Positions 12,299 to 41,202 of a DNA stretch of 64,000 nucleotides are shown in pieces. The notes under the pieces are model-generated. The model had not been told where the DNA came from. It saw nothing but the letters and a program-made list of their open reading frames with translations, and searched no databases. The DNA comes from Flavobacterium phragmitis (lineage in GTDB: Bacteria > Bacteroidota > Bacteroidia > Flavobacteriales > Flavobacteriaceae): assembly GCF_900112575.1 (NCBI RefSeq), contig NZ_FOMH01000012.1, positions 62,001-126,000 of the forward strand. The letters are read 5' to 3'. Numbering within the stretch: position 1 is the first letter of the stretch; every line of letters begins with the position of its first letter. The position numbers were made by a program, and so were the translations under genes.

Positions 12299-12445
12299 TT
12301 TTTGCCACTGATTAAAGGGTTTAAAAAAGATTTTTTCGCCACAAATTTCACAAATTTACACAAATCAATTCGTGAAAATTCGTGAAATTCGTGGCGACTT
12401 AAACAAGATTAGAAAATCATTTTAATCTATATAATCTGTGGCAAA
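12299..12445. repeat. Nested inverted repeats between convergent genes
   Basis: Outer arms TTTGCCACTGATT (about 12300-12313) and AATCTGTGGCAAA (about 12433-12445) enclose an inner imperfect palindrome, CGCCACAAATTTCACAAATT (12337-12356) with AATTCGTGAAATTCGTGGCG (about 12377-12396). It belongs to the same GCCACGAATT family as the elements at 20828-20935 and 37671-37710. It could act as a bidirectional terminator for ytxJ and the DUF2157 pair. Confidence 0.75.
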
Positions 12446-18691: not shown

Positions 18692-18959
18692 AGGTTTGGT
18701 TTCTTTGCCACGAAGGCTCGAAGTCACAAAGTTTAATTTAAATCTGTGACATTTTTAATTTGCGCAAATTTCCAAAATTAAATTTTAAAAGTACTGCGCA
18801 ACTCTGTTTTTTTGCCACTAATTACACGAATTTTCGCAAATTATTTTTTTGTTTTAGATTTAAAATCAAAATGAACTTTTTCATGTCTGTTTAAAATTAT
18901 TTTCTCTTTTTTAAGCAGAAAAAAATTAGTGTCAATTCGTGTTATTCGTGACTATATCT
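18692..18959. repeat. argB-argE junction with imperfect GCCAC/GTGAC palindromes
   Basis: Two imperfect inverted repeats: a shorter one near the argE start (TTTGCCACGAAGG... with AATCTGTGAC, 18713-18750), and a longer one (GCCACTAATTACACGAATT at about 18814-18832 with AATTCGTGTTATTCGTGAC at about 18934-18952). The spacer is low-complexity AT. No gene is seen. Confidence 0.65.
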
Positions 18960-19733: not shown

Positions 19734-19760
19734 ACTTTTAGGTTCAGAGAGACAAAGTAA

Positions 19761-19822
19761 CAAAGTAACAAAGTGACAAAGTTTCTATTCAAGGTACAAA
19801 CCTTTGTCACTTTGTTACTTTG
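19761..19822. repeat. Inverted repeat of CAAAGTAA units in the argF'-argB junction
   Basis: A 21-base arm CAAAGTAACAAAGTGACAAAG (19761-19781) is matched by its perfect complement at 19802-19822, with a 20-base spacer. The arms are themselves built of short CAAAGTRA repeats and extend imperfectly outwards on both sides. Confidence 0.88.
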
Positions 19823-19841
19823 CTCCTTTGCAACTATAAAA

Positions 19842-20827: not shown

Positions 20828-20935
20828 GCCACGAATTCACGAATTATTTTTTCAATCTTTGCGTTTTTTTTTTCGAATGAATTCGAATTAATATTTCGTT
20901 TAGATAGTAAAAAGAATAATTCGTGAATTCGTGGC
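20828..20935. repeat. Perfect 21-base inverted repeat in the proB-argF' junction
   Basis: GCCACGAATTCACGAATTATT (20828-20848) is exactly mirrored at 20915-20935, touching the proB stop codon. The 66-base spacer contains a second small palindrome (TTCGAATGAATTCGAA). The same unit occurs at 37671-37710. Confidence 0.9.
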
Positions 20936-21696: not shown

Positions 21697-21840
21697 GTCT
21701 TTTGTTTTTGCCACGAAGGCGCTAAGGCACTAAGTTTTTATGTTTTTTTGCCACGAATTACACAAATTGACGCTAATTTATTCAGCATCTTAATAAAAAA
21801 TAATTTGTATGAATTAGTGTAATTCGTTGCAAACCAAATC
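21697..21840. repeat. proA-proB junction with imperfect palindrome
   Basis: Arms GCCACGAATTACACAAATTG (from 21749) and AATTAGTGTAATTCGTTGC (up to about 21829) form an imperfect inverted repeat. A neighbouring GCCACGAAGGCGCTAAGGCAC stretch (21710-21730) is another common repeat type. Non-coding. Confidence 0.7.
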
Positions 21841-24324: not shown

Positions 24325-24410
24325 GTTTTTTTGTTGTTGGTTGATTGTTGTTGGTTGATGGTCTTATCTGATGTTTCCATAAACTATAAACCAACAACTA
24401 TCAACTATTA
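24325..24410. repeat. argC-argD junction with weak TTGTTGGTT inverted repeat
   Basis: Tandem TTGTTGGTTGAT units (about 24333-24358) face ACCAACAACTATCAAC (about 24390-24405). The repeat is imperfect. It is analogous in position to the stronger palindromes in the other junctions. Confidence 0.55.
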
Positions 24411-36375: not shown

Positions 36376-36684
36376 AATGGGTAGGTTTTATTTTCGCAAA
36401 AATAAGAAAGAAAACAGGATTTCAAATATTGATTTTTAAATAATAAAAATGTAAAGTCAAAAGTCGAAAAACAAAAGCCATTATTTGTCAGGCCGAGGAT
36501 AGCCGAAGTCCTTTTCCTAACTGTACACTCCTCGACTTCGCTTTGGGTGAAAAGTTACAAAAAGAAAGAAGCAACAAACAATAAGCGACCAACAACCAAT
36601 AACTCACAACCAACAACTCACAATTACCTAAATTCATTTTCACGGTAAACAAATAAATTATATTTTTGTTTAAAATACATTCTC
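36376..36684. other. Gene-free stretch with repeats between pcm and the Gfo/Idh gene
   Basis: The 309 bases between the divergent starts contain an imperfect inverted repeat at 36485-36551 (GTCAGGCCGAGGATAGCCGAAGTC with CTCGACTTCGCTTTGGGTGA, a degenerate form of the AGCGAAGTCGA palindromes common in flavobacteria), a run of CAACAA/CAACTCAC units (36570-36627), and a candidate -7 box TATTTTTG (36661-36668) before the oxidoreductase start. I see no coding frame. Confidence 0.65.
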
Positions 36685-37650
36685 ATGTTAAAAGTAGGAG
36701 TTTTAGGTGCTGGTCATCTTGGTAAAATACATTTACGCTTATTACAACAATCTGACAAATACGAATTAGTTGGATTTTACGACGAAAATCAGGAAAATGC
36801 CGAAAGAATCTCAAAAGAATTTGGCTATAAAAATTTCAGCACAATTGCAAAACTTATTCACGCTGTCGACGTGATTGACATTGTTACTCCTACGCTTTCG
36901 CACTACAAATGCGCTAAAGTTGCCATCAAATCAGGAAAACATATCTTTATTGAAAAACCAATCGCCAATACAGTTGAAGAAGCCGAAGAAATTATTGCTT
37001 TAGCAAACGAATACAACGTAAAAGGACAAGTTGGTCACGTAGAGCGTTTTAATCCTGCTTTTATCGCTACAAAAGAAATGATCGAAAATCCGATGTTTAT
37101 AGAAACGCATCGTTTGGCAGAATTTAATCCTCGCGGTACAGATGTTCCTGTAGTTTTGGATTTAATGATTCACGATATCGATGCTATTTTAAGTGTTGTA
37201 AAATCTAAAGTAAAAAGCATCAATGCAAGTGGTGTTTCGGTTATCAGCGAAACTCCGGATATTGCCAACGCCAGAATCGAATTCGAAAATGGCTGTGTTG
37301 CTAACTTAACTGCCAGCAGAATTTCAATGAAAAACATGCGTAAATCACGCTTCTTTCAAAAAGACGCATACATTTCTGTTGACTTTTTAGAGAAAAAATG
37401 TGAAGTGGTTCGTATGAAAGATGCACCAGAAGTTCCTGGAGATTTTGATATGATTTTGCAGAATGCTGAAGGTGTAAAAAAACAAATCTATTTCACTAAT
37501 CCAGATGTTGAGCAAAACAATGCCATTTTAGACGAATTAAATTCGTTTGCAGATGCTATCAATAACGACACAACTCCAGTTGTAACACTTGAGCAGGCAA
37601 CAGATGCATTACGCGTGGCTTATCAAATTATTGATTGTTTCAAAAAATAA
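36685..37650 (+). CDS. Gfo/Idh/MocA family oxidoreductase
   Basis: 321 residues. N-terminal Rossmann domain: VGVLGAGHLGKIHLRLL (4-20), VDVIDIVTPTLSHY and HIFIEKPIANTVEEAEEII (the EKP motif that positions the nicotinamide). The C-terminal alpha/beta domain has RLAEFNPRGTDVPVVLDLMIHDIDAIL, with the catalytic-site Asp/His pair. The substrate is unknown, probably a sugar or inositol-like compound. It may be cotranscribed with the downstream hbd, across a repeat hairpin. Confidence 0.92.
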   Translation: MLKVGVLGAGHLGKIHLRLLQQSDKYELVGFYDENQENAERISKEFGYKNFSTIAKLIHAVDVIDIVTPTLSHYKCAKVAIKSGKHIFIEKPIANTVEEAEEIIALANEYNVKGQVGHVERFNPAFIATKEMIENPMFIETHRLAEFNPRGTDVPVVLDLMIHDIDAILSVVKSKVKSINASGVSVISETPDIANARIEFENGCVANLTASRISMKNMRKSRFFQKDAYISVDFLEKKCEVVRMKDAPEVPGDFDMILQNAEGVKKQIYFTNPDVEQNNAILDELNSFADAINNDTTPVVTLEQATDALRVAYQIIDCFKK

Positions 37651-37670: not shown

Positions 37671-37710
37671 TAGCCACGAATTCACGAATTATTTGGTGAA
37701 TTCGTGGCTA
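37671..37710. repeat. GCCACGAATTCAC hairpin repeat
   Basis: TAGCCACGAATTCAC (37671-37685) and its perfect complement (37696-37710) with a ten-base loop. The same unit flanks the spacer between proB and argF' (20828-20935). Confidence 0.9.
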
Positions 37711-38635: not shown

Positions 38636-39295
38636 ATGTCGATTCAATCGAATTTAAATACAATCAAATCAACTTTACCTGAACATGTAACTCTGGTTGC
38701 CGTTTCAAAAACAAAACCTGTCTCCGATTTGATGCAGGCTTATGAAGCTGGGCAACGCATTTTTGGAGAAAACAAAATTCAGGAAATGACGGAGAAATGG
38801 GAACAAATGCCAAAAGATATCCAATGGCATATGATTGGTCATGTTCAGTCGAATAAAGTCAAATTTATGGCGCCTTATGTGACTTTAATTCATGGCGTTG
38901 ACAGTTTGAAATTATTGCAAGAAATTAATAAACAAGCTTTAAAAAATAATAGAATTATAGATTGTCTTCTCCAAATTTATATTGCTGAAGAAGAATCTAA
39001 ATTTGGTTTAGACGAAAATGAACTAAATGCACTTTTAACTTCTGCAGAGTTTAAAGAGTTAAAAAATATTCGTATCTTAGGTTTAATGGGAATGGCCACT
39101 TTTACCGAAGACCAAAACCAGATTAAAAAAGAATTTACCCATTTAAAATCGATTTTTGATTCGATAAAAGAGCTGAAAACTGACAACTGCAGTCTGAACA
39201 CTATATCGATGGGAATGTCTGGAGATTATCAATTGGCAATAGAATGCGGAAGCACAATGGTTCGCATTGGAAGCAGCATTTTTGGCGGTCGTTAA
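38636..39295 (+). CDS. yggS: YggS family PLP-binding protein
   Basis: 219 residues, a single PLP-binding TIM barrel without the second domain of alanine racemase. The PLP Lys sits in LVAVSKTKP (residues 20-28); FGENKIQEM, WHMIGHVQSNKVK and MGMSGDYQLAIECGSTMVRIGSSIFG are the family motifs. It balances free PLP in the cell. Its TAA stop (39293-39295) is also the first three bases of the 18-base direct repeat of the element that follows. Confidence 0.95.
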   Translation: MSIQSNLNTIKSTLPEHVTLVAVSKTKPVSDLMQAYEAGQRIFGENKIQEMTEKWEQMPKDIQWHMIGHVQSNKVKFMAPYVTLIHGVDSLKLLQEINKQALKNNRIIDCLLQIYIAEEESKFGLDENELNALLTSAEFKELKNIRILGLMGMATFTEDQNQIKKEFTHLKSIFDSIKELKTDNCSLNTISMGMSGDYQLAIECGSTMVRIGSSIFGGR

Positions 39296-39310
39296 TTTTT
39301 CAATATCAAT
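39293..39310 (+). repeat. Left copy of direct repeat TAATTTTTCAATATCAAT
   Basis: Identical over 18 bases to 39702-39719. The first TAA is the yggS stop. In the right copy, the TAA is the stop of the four-helix-bundle gene. The pair brackets that gene. Confidence 0.9.
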
Positions 39311-39338
39311 TGCAATTGCAAAAATCAATATCAATTTT
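39301..39338. repeat. Left arm of the CAATNN array
   Basis: It consists of six-base CAATNN units (CAATAT, CAATTG, CAATTG, then CAAAAAT, CAATAT, CAATTTT). Bases 39307-39338 are inverted relative to 39761-39792, with 29 of 32 positions complementary. The arm lies directly between yggS and the four-helix-bundle gene. Confidence 0.85.
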
Positions 39339-39356
39339 AAAATGGGAAAAATTTAA

Positions 39357-39704
39357 ATAGAAAAAATATTCAATTTTGAAGATCGATTAGTGCGATTTGC
39401 TGGAGAATGTATTTTTTTCACTCGACAATTAGAAAGGTTATTTGAAAATGAATATTATAAAAATCAATTAATTCGATCATCAGGAAGTGCCTCTTTAAAT
39501 TTTGGAGAAGCACAAGGGACAATAACTGATAAAGATTTTGTTTTTAAAGTTTCATTAGTCGTGAAGGAGTTAAAAGAATCAAGAAACTCATTAAAAATTC
39601 TAGATTATATTAAAGAAGGCGATGACAGCAAAAGAAATAAACTTCTAATCGAAGTAGAGCAATTAATCGCAATTTCATCAAAAATGATAATAAATAAAAG
39701 ATAA
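39357..39704 (+). CDS. Four-helix-bundle protein (23S rRNA intervening-sequence / Avd-like family)
   Basis: The conserved family opening, EKIFNFEDRLVRFAGECIFF, is preceded by ATA at 39357, directly after an in-frame TAA; the first standard start is GTG at 39390, which would cut the opening off. So either ATA is used, or the start was lost by mutation. The full frame codes 115 residues: helix 1 through RQLERLF, then NQLIRSSGSASLNFGEAQGT, the family signature, FVFKVSLVVKELKESRNSLKILDYI and a last helix. Homologues sit in 23S rRNA intervening sequences, and the Avd subunit of diversity-generating retroelements shares the fold. No reverse transcriptase is nearby. Flanked by CAATNN arrays. Confidence 0.82.
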   Translation: MEKIFNFEDRLVRFAGECIFFTRQLERLFENEYYKNQLIRSSGSASLNFGEAQGTITDKDFVFKVSLVVKELKESRNSLKILDYIKEGDDSKRNKLLIEVEQLIAISSKMIINKR

Positions 39705-39838
39705 TTTTTCAATATCAATGACAATGGCAAAAAATCAATAACAATGACAACGGCAATTTCAAAATTGAAATTGATTTTTGATATTGCAATTGTTTTTTTG
39801 ATATTGTAATTGCCATTGATTTTTGACATTGACATTGA
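39702..39838. repeat. Right direct repeat and two-armed CAATNN array
   Basis: It starts with the 18-base repeat (39702-39719), continues in plus-oriented units (CAATAT, CAATGA, CAATGG, CAAAAAAT, CAATAA, CAATGA, CAACGG, CAATTT) to about 39760, then switches to minus-oriented units (ATTGAAATTGATTTTTGATATTG...) to 39838. It can fold as one long imperfect hairpin of about 130 bases. It stops two bases before the ATG of the nuclease gene at 39841, so it also forms that gene's 5' region. Confidence 0.88.
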
Positions 39839-39840
39839 AT

Positions 39841-41202
39841 ATGTACGCAATATTAGACATAGAAACAACTGGAGGCCAATTTAATGAAGAGGGAATTACC
39901 GAAATCGCTATCTACAAATTTGATGGGCATGAAGTAGTTGATCAATTCATCAGCCTTGTCAATCCTGAAATTCCGATTCAGCCTTTCGTAGTAAAACTGA
40001 CTGGAATTAATAACGCTATGTTACGTTCTGCTCCAAAATTCTACGAAGTTGCGAAACGAATTATAGAAATCACTCAAGATTGCGTTATTGTAGCTCACAA
40101 CGCCTCTTTTGACTATAGAATCCTGCGTACAGAATTCAGACGTTTAGGCTACGATTTTGAAGCTAAAACACTTTGTACAGTAGAACTAGCGAAAAAACTA
40201 ATTCCAGAACAACCGTCTTACAGTTTAGGAAAACTTGTTCGTTCACTAGGAATTCCAATGGCCGACAGACATCGCGCCAGTGGAGACGCTATGGCTACAA
40301 CGAAGCTTTTCAAAATGCTTTTGGAAAAAGATGTTGAAAAAACCATCGTAAAAGATTTTATAAAACTCGAAGTCGAAAAAGGAATTTCTCCAAAATTCTT
40401 GGATATATTAAATCAAATGCCGGCTAAAACAGGCGTTTATTATATCTACAAAGAAGATGGGACTTTAATTTACATTGGAAAAAGCCAAAATATCAAAAAA
40501 AGAGTCAATCAGCATTTTACGGGAGTTACAACCAAAAGCAAACGAATTCAGGCGGAAGTTTTCACCATAACTTACGACGAAACTGGAAGCGAATTAATTG
40601 CACTTTTAAAAGAAAGCCAAGAGGTTAAAGTAAATCGCCCTCGATATAATCGCTCGCAAAAGAAAACTATTTTCCCTTTCGCTTTATATGCCGAAAAAGA
40701 TTCAAATGGCTATATCAATTTAAAACTTGAAAAAGCAGACGGACGTAAAAAAGAAATCACTTCTTATGTTTCTTTGCAAGAAGGCAAAAATGCGCTTTTT
40801 AAGATTACGGCAAAATATCATTTGTGCCAAAAATTAACAGGTTTATACCAAACCAAAAAAGAGTGTTTTCAATATAAAATTAAAGAATGTGACGGAGCAT
40901 GCATTGGCGAAATCAATCCAGAAGTTTATAATTTGAGAGTACAGCAATTCATCTCAGAAAACAGTTTTGAAAACAAAAGCATGGTCCTTATTGACAGAGG
41001 AAGAAATGTAAACGAAAGAAGTGCCATTTTAATCGAAAACGGAACTTATATAGGTTACGCTTATTACGATCTTAATTATCAAATCACGAATATTGATATC
41101 TTAAAAAATATTTTGGTTCCGATGCAGCATAATCGAGATGTAAAGAATATCATTCAGAGTTATATCCGAAAAAGCAAATCATTAAAAATACTTCATTTTT
41201 AA
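39841..41202 (+). CDS. DnaQ-like exonuclease fused to a GIY-YIG (UvrC N-terminal) nuclease
   Basis: 453 residues from the ATG at 39841 (MYAILDIETTGG); the frame open to 39823 lies in the repeat array. Residues 1-165: DEDDh 3'-5' exonuclease (DIETTG, HNASFDYRIL, HRASGDAMAT). Residues about 195-285: GIY-YIG endonuclease as in UvrC and Cho (GVYYIYKEDGTLIYIGKSQNIKKRVNQHF, ELIALLKESQEVKVNRPRYN). The rest matches the UvrC-like region with a Cys cluster (CQKL, KKECFQYKIKECDGACIGE). Probably DNA repair, combining incision with end trimming. Such fusions are known in several bacterial groups, as stand-alone genes without uvrA/uvrB. Confidence 0.9.
   Translation: MYAILDIETTGGQFNEEGITEIAIYKFDGHEVVDQFISLVNPEIPIQPFVVKLTGINNAMLRSAPKFYEVAKRIIEITQDCVIVAHNASFDYRILRTEFRRLGYDFEAKTLCTVELAKKLIPEQPSYSLGKLVRSLGIPMADRHRASGDAMATTKLFKMLLEKDVEKTIVKDFIKLEVEKGISPKFLDILNQMPAKTGVYYIYKEDGTLIYIGKSQNIKKRVNQHFTGVTTKSKRIQAEVFTITYDETGSELIALLKESQEVKVNRPRYNRSQKKTIFPFALYAEKDSNGYINLKLEKADGRKKEITSYVSLQEGKNALFKITAKYHLCQKLTGLYQTKKECFQYKIKECDGACIGEINPEVYNLRVQQFISENSFENKSMVLIDRGRNVNERSAILIENGTYIGYAYYDLNYQITNIDILKNILVPMQHNRDVKNIIQSYIRKSKSLKILHF

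Follow-up and report, generated by a model that had tools for sequence, protein, structure and literature searches.

Four-helix-bundle genes enclosed by inverted short-repeat arrays: a candidate class of transposase-less mobile units in Flavobacterium and other bacteria

The yggS–exonuclease junction

We analyzed a 64-kb stretch of the Flavobacterium phragmitis genome (the window), in which a gene for a four-helix-bundle (4HB) protein lies between yggS and an exonuclease gene and is flanked by arrays of the degenerate repeat CAATNN. The junction contains the following features.

38636–39295, plus strand: yggS, the upstream neighbour, encoding a YggS family PLP-dependent protein (TIGR00044, 211 bits); its TAA opens the first 18-base repeat
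39293–39310, plus strand: 18-base direct repeat, copy 1
39298–39341, plus strand: CAATNN array upstream of the 4HB gene (left arm)
39357–39704, plus strand: 4HB gene (PF05635/TIGR02436); the frame starts with ATA, and the first usual start is GTG at 39390
39702–39719, plus strand: 18-base direct repeat, copy 2
39707–39758, plus strand: downstream CAATNN array in direct orientation
39763–39838, minus strand: downstream inverted CAATNN arrays (right arm)
39841–41202, plus strand: downstream neighbour, encoding a DnaQ-like exonuclease / GIY-YIG (UvrC-like) protein

A preliminary description of this DNA had reported the repeated 18-mer, the inverted arms, and a right flank that carries the array in both orientations, and all three were reproduced. 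The 18-mer, TAATTTTTCAATATCAAT, has exactly two copies in the window (39293–39310 and 39702–39719) and none on the opposite strand; its TAA is the stop codon of yggS in the first copy and of the bundle gene in the second. The arms at 39307–39338 and 39761–39792 are complementary at 29 of 32 positions and can be extended to 42 nt with 86% complementarity (39302–39343 and 39756–39797). On the right flank, a direct array (about 39707–39758) is followed by the inverted arrays, which stop two bases short of the exonuclease ATG at 39841. The sequence CAATNNCAATNNCAAT occurs three times in the 64 kb, each time at the 4HB locus, where shuffled sequence would be expected to contain 0.06 occurrences. 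The predicted RNA fold of the unit is modestly better than that of shuffles (z −2.15; 4 of 100 shuffles did equally well), and its best predicted stem is local to the right flank. A search for known RNA families returned a single match, DnaX at 18.1 bits, under the gathering score of 35.

The four-helix-bundle protein

The call of a four-helix-bundle gene was confirmed by profile search, with matches above the cut-off to PF05635 (34.6 bits against 33.8) and to TIGR02436, "four helix bundle protein" (47.6 bits against 24). PF05635 is the sole Pfam match of the protein at E≤0.001, and no transposase family among the Pfam profiles matched it. The AlphaFold model (pLDDT 93.6) has four helices, and its best PDB matches are 2gsc and 2rld, with TM-scores of 0.79–0.86. 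The sequence of the window protein alone finds no PDB match; the family profile does find 2gsc and 2rld. Judged by these matches, the window protein belongs, as a divergent representative, to the S23/IVP four-helix-bundle family, which is widely distributed: PF05635 is present in 60 of 61 Flavobacterium genomes and in 90 of 118 genomes of a phylum-wide draw.

The window copy opens with ATA, whereas the 21 next closest orthologues (L158–L178) all begin with ATG. The gene may thus be weakly translated, or be starting to decay, in this strain.

Inverted arrays around other 4HB genes

The window genome has nine PF05635 genes, and all nine are bracketed by their own inverted low-complexity array with units of 6–8 nt. 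The motif differs from locus to locus: CAAAGNNN, TTAGTCC, CAGTCT, TCAGTNN, ATAGANN, GTTTATT, AATTNNN, CCAAATT, and CAATNN. To score bracketing, the upstream flank of each gene was aligned with the reverse complement of its own downstream flank, with a threshold score of at least 15. The nine loci score from 15.5 to 32, above all 70 pairings of mismatched flanks.

Across the genus, 60 of 96 loci reach the threshold (L050 and L068 were left out as too short), whereas the same is seen in 3% of the 1418 mismatched pairs and for one of the 58 ordinary genes of the window. These counts are not independent, as many of the loci are orthologues. Grouped by shared outer flanks, at least half of the loci are bracketed in 19 of 26 site clusters, one of which, with 38 loci, is possibly chained. 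By the flank test, about one third of the genus's 4HB loci have no bracket, and the share is larger outside the genus. In the phylum-wide draw, 39% of 28 loci (two of them, L133 and L148, from the same genus) are bracketed against 1% of mismatched pairs; by site cluster, the count is 9 of 20. A scan of named genomes, from which the best 80 of 585 matches were taken, gave 57% of 74 usable loci against 3% of mismatched pairs; some of the 74 are from Flavobacterium, and six further loci were omitted for short flanks. Among metagenome-assembled genomes of other named phyla or groups, for which the taxon assignment can be wrong, seven of eight usable loci reach 15 (SAR324, Chlorobiota, Peregrinibacteria, Syntrophobacterales, Desulfosarcina, Lambdaproteobacteria, and Clostridia), and one from Patescibacteria falls below. 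Six of ten 4HB loci on cyanobacterial plasmids score 14.5–31.5, above every mismatch, and four do not. One 4HB protein searched against 72,556 plasmid records matched 26, mostly cyanobacterial by their listed genera. Carriage by phage was also considered and set aside, since the search with one 4HB protein found no match among 50,697 phage records.

The 4HB loci share further traits. Of 71 bracketed loci, 64 have repeats with a period of 7 or 8. Both neighbours are co-directional with the 4HB gene in 113 of 123 loci; for window genes the figure is 35 of 59. With ties set aside, G outnumbers C in the upstream arm at 98 of 109 loci. Bracketing, its dependence on each locus's own motif, the placement between co-directional genes, and the arm polarity are all established by comparing sequences. 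The window unit itself is atypical, with reversed arm polarity (it is among the 11 exceptions), an additional direct array, and a divergent protein. Its layout of array, gene, direct array, and inverted array was rejected as a general plan because only 6 of the 71 bracketed loci have a direct downstream copy of the upstream arm. Among the ten cyanobacterial plasmid genes, three oppose both neighbours, and two of these three are bracketed; bracketed genes that oppose both neighbours (L112, L114, L420, and L423) may help to test orientation.

Gain, loss, replacement, and duplication of units

We compared the other eight 4HB sites of the window genome with the corresponding sites in genomes G006, G262, G209, and G015, giving 32 comparisons. 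The same 4HB gene (87–97% identity) was found in 11, a 4HB gene of another lineage (32–74%) with another array motif in five, and no 4HB gene in 16, one of which (L004 in G209) is possibly not the same site.

A clean empty site lies between mraY and murD. The stop codon of one gene abuts the start codon of the other in G262 and G209, and G000, G006, and G015 carry a unit there. Division clusters normally have mraY and murD side by side, so the unit at this site was most likely inserted. No target duplication was seen at this junction, the sole empty site examined. At the L003 site, the upstream gene is 89–98% identical in all four relatives; in G262 the 4HB gene is missing there, but an inverted array with the same motif is present. 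This array scores 18.5 (direct) and 17.0 (inverted) against the arms in G000, compared with 6 to 7.5 for two other relatives. Among 39 fragments taken from elsewhere, one or more reach 19.5, so a motif of this kind is not confined to L003.

Genome G052 has two copies (protein 96.6% identical, DNA 85%), one at each of the two junctions within a run of three co-directional genes whose middle member is FadB-like (under the curated cut-off); the sole block shared between the copies is the gene plus its arrays. The pair could alternatively represent two arrivals of one lineage rather than a copying event. When similar proteins (at least 75% identity) occur at different sites, the motif can be common to both: four of nine such pairs score at least 14, compared with about 1% of pairs at 40–60% identity, and the nine pairs amount to three independent cases (L116/L124, L082/L089, and L103 against the gmk site). 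These observations indicate that a gene and its arrays behave as one mobile unit. The loci compared display an empty site, geneless arrays at sites that bear the gene elsewhere, replacement, and duplication, which is the behaviour of a unit as far as locus comparison can reveal it. A 4HB gene between the guanylate kinase and nicotinate mononucleotide adenylyltransferase genes of Flavobacterium columnare is listed in a table of phage elements (PMC5524665), and a 4HB gene of the window genome (L002) likewise adjoins a guanylate kinase gene.

The ends are not conserved as in fixed-end transposons, as the motif differs among the nine loci of the window genome. Two enzymes that might act in trans were considered and rejected. 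Across 61 genomes, 4HB copy number is unrelated to that of reverse transcriptase (PF00078; rho 0.09, with 29 of the 61 lacking PF00078) or of Y1 transposase (rho 0.16, with 20 of the 61 lacking Y1), and the 11 genomes without either enzyme have from 0 to 9 4HB genes each.

History of the window unit

Proteins of the window type (at least 73% identity, fragments included) occur in 61 of 299 genomes of the genus. We compared the best 30 of these loci, the window locus included. The same exonuclease gene is downstream in all 30, and yggS is upstream in all 29 with enough sequence, in L186 with an additional stretch. CAATNN repeats are present on at least one side in all 30, in numbers and order that vary by species. 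The median dN/dS to the window copy is 0.046 for the 4HB gene (19 orthologues), 0.043 for the exonuclease gene (19), and 0.048 for yggS (8). By this measure, the window 4HB protein is under strong purifying selection.

A second, separate set comprised 25 loci centred on the exonuclease gene or its nearest match; 23 of them have yggS upstream, and three (G000, G004, and G005) have the 4HB gene. At the junction, G006, G015, and G008 have neither the gene nor CAATNN arrays; each of these spacers finishes with a short array whose motif is different, or with what is left of one. On the exonuclease tree, these three absences are nested in a 25-species clade with 22 presences, and the whole tree requires eight presence/absence changes, in a sample that favours presences because rows were chosen for having the gene (L168 was omitted, being from the same genome as L014). 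The nested absences, the fixed junction, and the selection on the protein together lead to the conclusion that the window unit is old, held at one place, and repeatedly lost rather than newly arrived, as read from these alignments.

The preliminary description had proposed that gene and arrays inserted behind yggS as a unit, and had suggested looking for an empty junction in related strains. Its notion of a unit is supported for the class, which shows gain, loss, replacement, and duplication; recent arrival at this locus is not supported, given the exonuclease gene in 30 of 30 loci and the dN/dS of 0.046. Junctions without gene and arrays do exist in G006, G015, and G008, but as absences among presences. 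A recent insertion in this strain would fit the sister G006, which lacks both gene and CAATNN arrays here; we nevertheless consider it very improbable, as both are found at the same junction in 29 other best loci and the three absences are nested. The same description held that a gene fixed at this place in all relatives, with diverged flanks, would count against a mobile unit. This is partly so, the gene being fixed at the junction where it is present and absent from close relatives.

In G001 (L026), a 151-nt spacer at the window's junction contains an inverted CAATNN array without the 4HB gene. This spacer is a good candidate for studying what remains after loss of the gene.

Arrays without the gene

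Four consecutive CAATNN units (CAATNN×4) occur in 173 of the 299 genus genomes, and a reversed control gives zero in most. The median number of matches is 10 in the 61 genomes with the window-type gene and 0 in the 238 without it, in counts that include the gene's own locus and overlapping matches and ignore kinship; at least 15 matches are found in 20 of the 61 and in 20 of the 238. For eight of the 20 array-rich genomes without the gene, 30 4HB loci (of 43 matches) were examined and had no CAATNN bracket, in that none has more than one CAATNN×2 or more than two ATTGNN×2. The suggestion that CAATNN arrays might always accompany this gene family is contradicted, since arrays occur without the gene and other 4HB sites carry other motifs. 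Freely occurring arrays had been named as evidence against a unit, and on this point the result is mixed: geneless arrays are found at the G001 junction and in genomes without the gene.

In the window genome, CAATNN×3 occurs at 28 places besides the window locus. Of 25 inspected, 13 are outside any open frame of at least 80 codons and several directly follow a stop codon. Some arrays are kept at their site, L239 in four of five genomes and L240 in five of five, including relatives without the gene, and CAATNN sites persist in G006 and G015, both of which lack the window-type gene. Within the window, several spacers contain geneless inverted arrays, among them the following two.

19741–19828, no strand: geneless inverted array of CAAAGNNA / CAAAGTNA units, of the same build; it fills the spacer between two minus-strand genes and has the same motif in four of four relatives
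24331–24408, no strand: geneless inverted array of GTTGNTG type; entirely different-motif hairpins occupy the same site in two of four relatives

Because geneless arrays of the same build are common, the arrays may have a life of their own. Other arrays were also observed. A 185-nt CAATNN array without a 4HB gene occurs in the window's own genome soon after a stop codon (L194 1500–1685; C5:175758–175942); three relatives were recovered for this site, and their arrays are much shorter. Short-period repeats of GCCACGAATTCACGAATT type, some inverted, are in the window spacers at 12340–12393, 18924–18950, 20830–20933, 21750–21830, and 37675–37690 and constitute another geneless array family. A solo array of ACAACCAACAACTC is located at 36569–36623, upstream of the gene at 36685.

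Comparison with known systems

The closest known thing to these units is the intervening sequence (IVS) of 23S rRNA, and on our best reading they are its relatives, placed in the spacers of protein genes. The Coxiella burnetii IVS is described as having an S23p open reading frame and a 28-bp stem of terminal inverted repeats that is cut by RNase III, with tandem heptamers upstream of the reading frame in strain-variable number; its mobility has been suspected (PMC4990558). The likeness is in the protein family (PF05635 takes its name from the IVS), the terminal inverted repeats, and the short-period repeats, and the window unit has such terminal inverted repeats around its S23p-family gene (42-nt arms, 86%). 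However, an IVS lies inside a 23S rRNA gene and the window unit between yggS and an exonuclease gene; the arms of the units are made of the repeats themselves, with an own motif at each locus of the window genome; and an IVS is excised by RNase III, whereas cutting of the units is a proposal.

The REPIN-RAYT system is described as a single-copy gene beside its own type of repeat, with several types per genome, each with a gene; the repeats are in inverted pairs, geneless copies are dispersed, and RAYT is a Y1 transposase (PMC3116915). The 4HB gene is likewise a single-copy gene found beside its own repeat type, in inverted pairs, with dispersed geneless copies and with several types in one genome, each accompanied by a gene. 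The 4HB protein is not a Y1 transposase (PF01797), though, its copy number is unrelated to Y1 or reverse transcriptase genes, and the arrays are tandem 6–10-mers with free motif and apparently weak dependence on the gene, since the two are associated across the 299 genomes but many arrays occur where the gene is absent. Avd of the diversity-generating retroelements has a similar fold; the model compared with Avd structures (4dwl and 8ub7–8ube) gives TM-scores of 0.72–0.78 by query length, with E-values of 0.1 to 0.7 that are not significant. In contrast to those retroelements, no reverse transcriptase adjoins the 4HB gene: the one RVT_1 match in the genome is on contig C12 and the window is on C17. 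A transposon with fixed ends and target duplication is not matched either, because the motif varies and no duplication is seen at mraY–murD.

The cyanobacterial STRR sequences are intergenic tandem heptamer repeats, comparable to the TAACTGA repeats. The latter are intergenic heptamers described from Beggiatoaceae, Cyanobacteria, and five Bacteroidetes (PMC4679880). Like the arrays, they are tandem heptamers that lie in spacers and frequently stop at a start codon; they differ in that nearly all are direct and of a single motif (PMC4679880). The main text of that paper has no match to "four helix" or "S23". The 4HB family, the rRNA IVSs, and the spacer heptamers are each already known separately. 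Openly licensed PMC papers, preprints not included, yielded no description of inverted arrays around free-standing 4HB genes or of their behaviour as units.

Proposed role of the units

Our preferred interpretation, to which we give about an even chance, is that the feature at the yggS–exonuclease junction belongs to a widespread class of mobile, IVS-like units without a transposase, in which paired arms make the insertion tolerable at the RNA level. Each unit consists of an S23/IVP 4HB gene inside inverted arrays of a degenerate 6–10-nt (mostly 7–8) repeat, usually positioned between the stop and start codons of co-directional genes. The arms would pair in the operon transcript into a long stem that is then cut or otherwise tolerated, by analogy with the RNase III cleavage of the stem of the 23S rRNA IVS, and the insertion would thereby spare the neighbouring genes. 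The 4HB protein, probably a homopentamer like its solved relative, may bind the arms or their RNA and help the unit to persist and spread using host enzymes. Slippage and template switching could produce the changes in array length and spacing. The antisense cyanobacterial copies, with three of ten opposing both neighbours, would be poorly expected under this RNA reading. The small advantage of the window unit's fold over shuffles (z −2.15), the 4HB loci that lack a bracket, and the frequency of geneless arrays also weigh against the interpretation.

The same facts can be arranged differently. The locus might be regulatory, with a vertically kept 4HB protein binding its own RNA or DNA motif, the flanking and dispersed arrays being sites that govern its own operon and a regulon. 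The fixed place and the dN/dS of 0.046 are in keeping with this, as are the dispersed CAATNN arrays in spacers, some of them kept at their site (L239 and L240), and a motif preserved despite rearrangement of copy number. We find a regulatory locus rather unlikely, since whole units are gained, lost, replaced, and duplicated at other loci, G006 and G015 retain CAATNN sites without the gene, and the motif was replaced wholesale at one site (w24325).

A neutral origin, by slippage and quasi-palindrome correction in permissive spacers where the 4HB gene merely resides, would account for the geneless inverted arrays in several window spacers, the change of motif at orthologous sites, and the abundance of CAATNN arrays in genomes without a CAAT-bracketed 4HB gene. 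It would not lead one to expect bracketing that far exceeds that of ordinary window genes and recurs in other phyla, an empty site (mraY–murD) with no spacer at all, arm polarity that prevails one way relative to the gene, or a duplicated block (G052) that ends at the arrays, and we judge it improbable. We take a similarly sceptical view of an arrangement like REPIN-RAYT, in which a single-copy, vertically inherited 4HB gene serves dispersed copies of its flanking repeats in trans. The gene is indeed held at a fixed place, and CAATNN×4 is more frequent in the 61 gene-bearing genomes than in the 238 others (medians of 10 and 0), but these counts include the gene's own locus and overlapping matches and ignore kinship. 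Moreover, 20 genomes without the gene still have at least 15 matches, the 30 4HB loci examined have no CAATNN bracket, and the protein matches no transposase family.

The reading as IVS-like mobile units can be extended to a bolder and more tentative proposal, possible in our opinion although we lean against it: that the units are a categorically new sort of mobile element, with neither transposase nor reverse transcriptase, whose ends can be any inverted short-period array with lineage-varying motif and prevailing strand polarity, and whose sole gene encodes a pentameric 4HB protein. The rRNA IVSs would then be members residing in rRNA genes, and the relics of such elements would include many of the heptamer arrays and geneless hairpins found in spacers of Bacteroidota and Cyanobacteria.

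For PF05635, a common family without an assigned function, the consistent anatomy described here provides a first testable role. The class offers an origin for rRNA IVSs and may account for the heptamer arrays seen in spacers of bacteria. Any movement of gene plus arrays would take place without a recombinase of the unit's own. The class may also account for the presence of PF05635 among cas genes on cyanobacterial plasmids and in CRISPR-association surveys; a figure legend in PMC10910872 that deals with new associations of CRISPR adaptation modules mentions the family. In the cyanobacterial plasmids, the 4HB gene is among cas genes in three of the ten loci examined (L417, L421, and L422), with units between cas6 and cas4 and between cas10 and cmr3.
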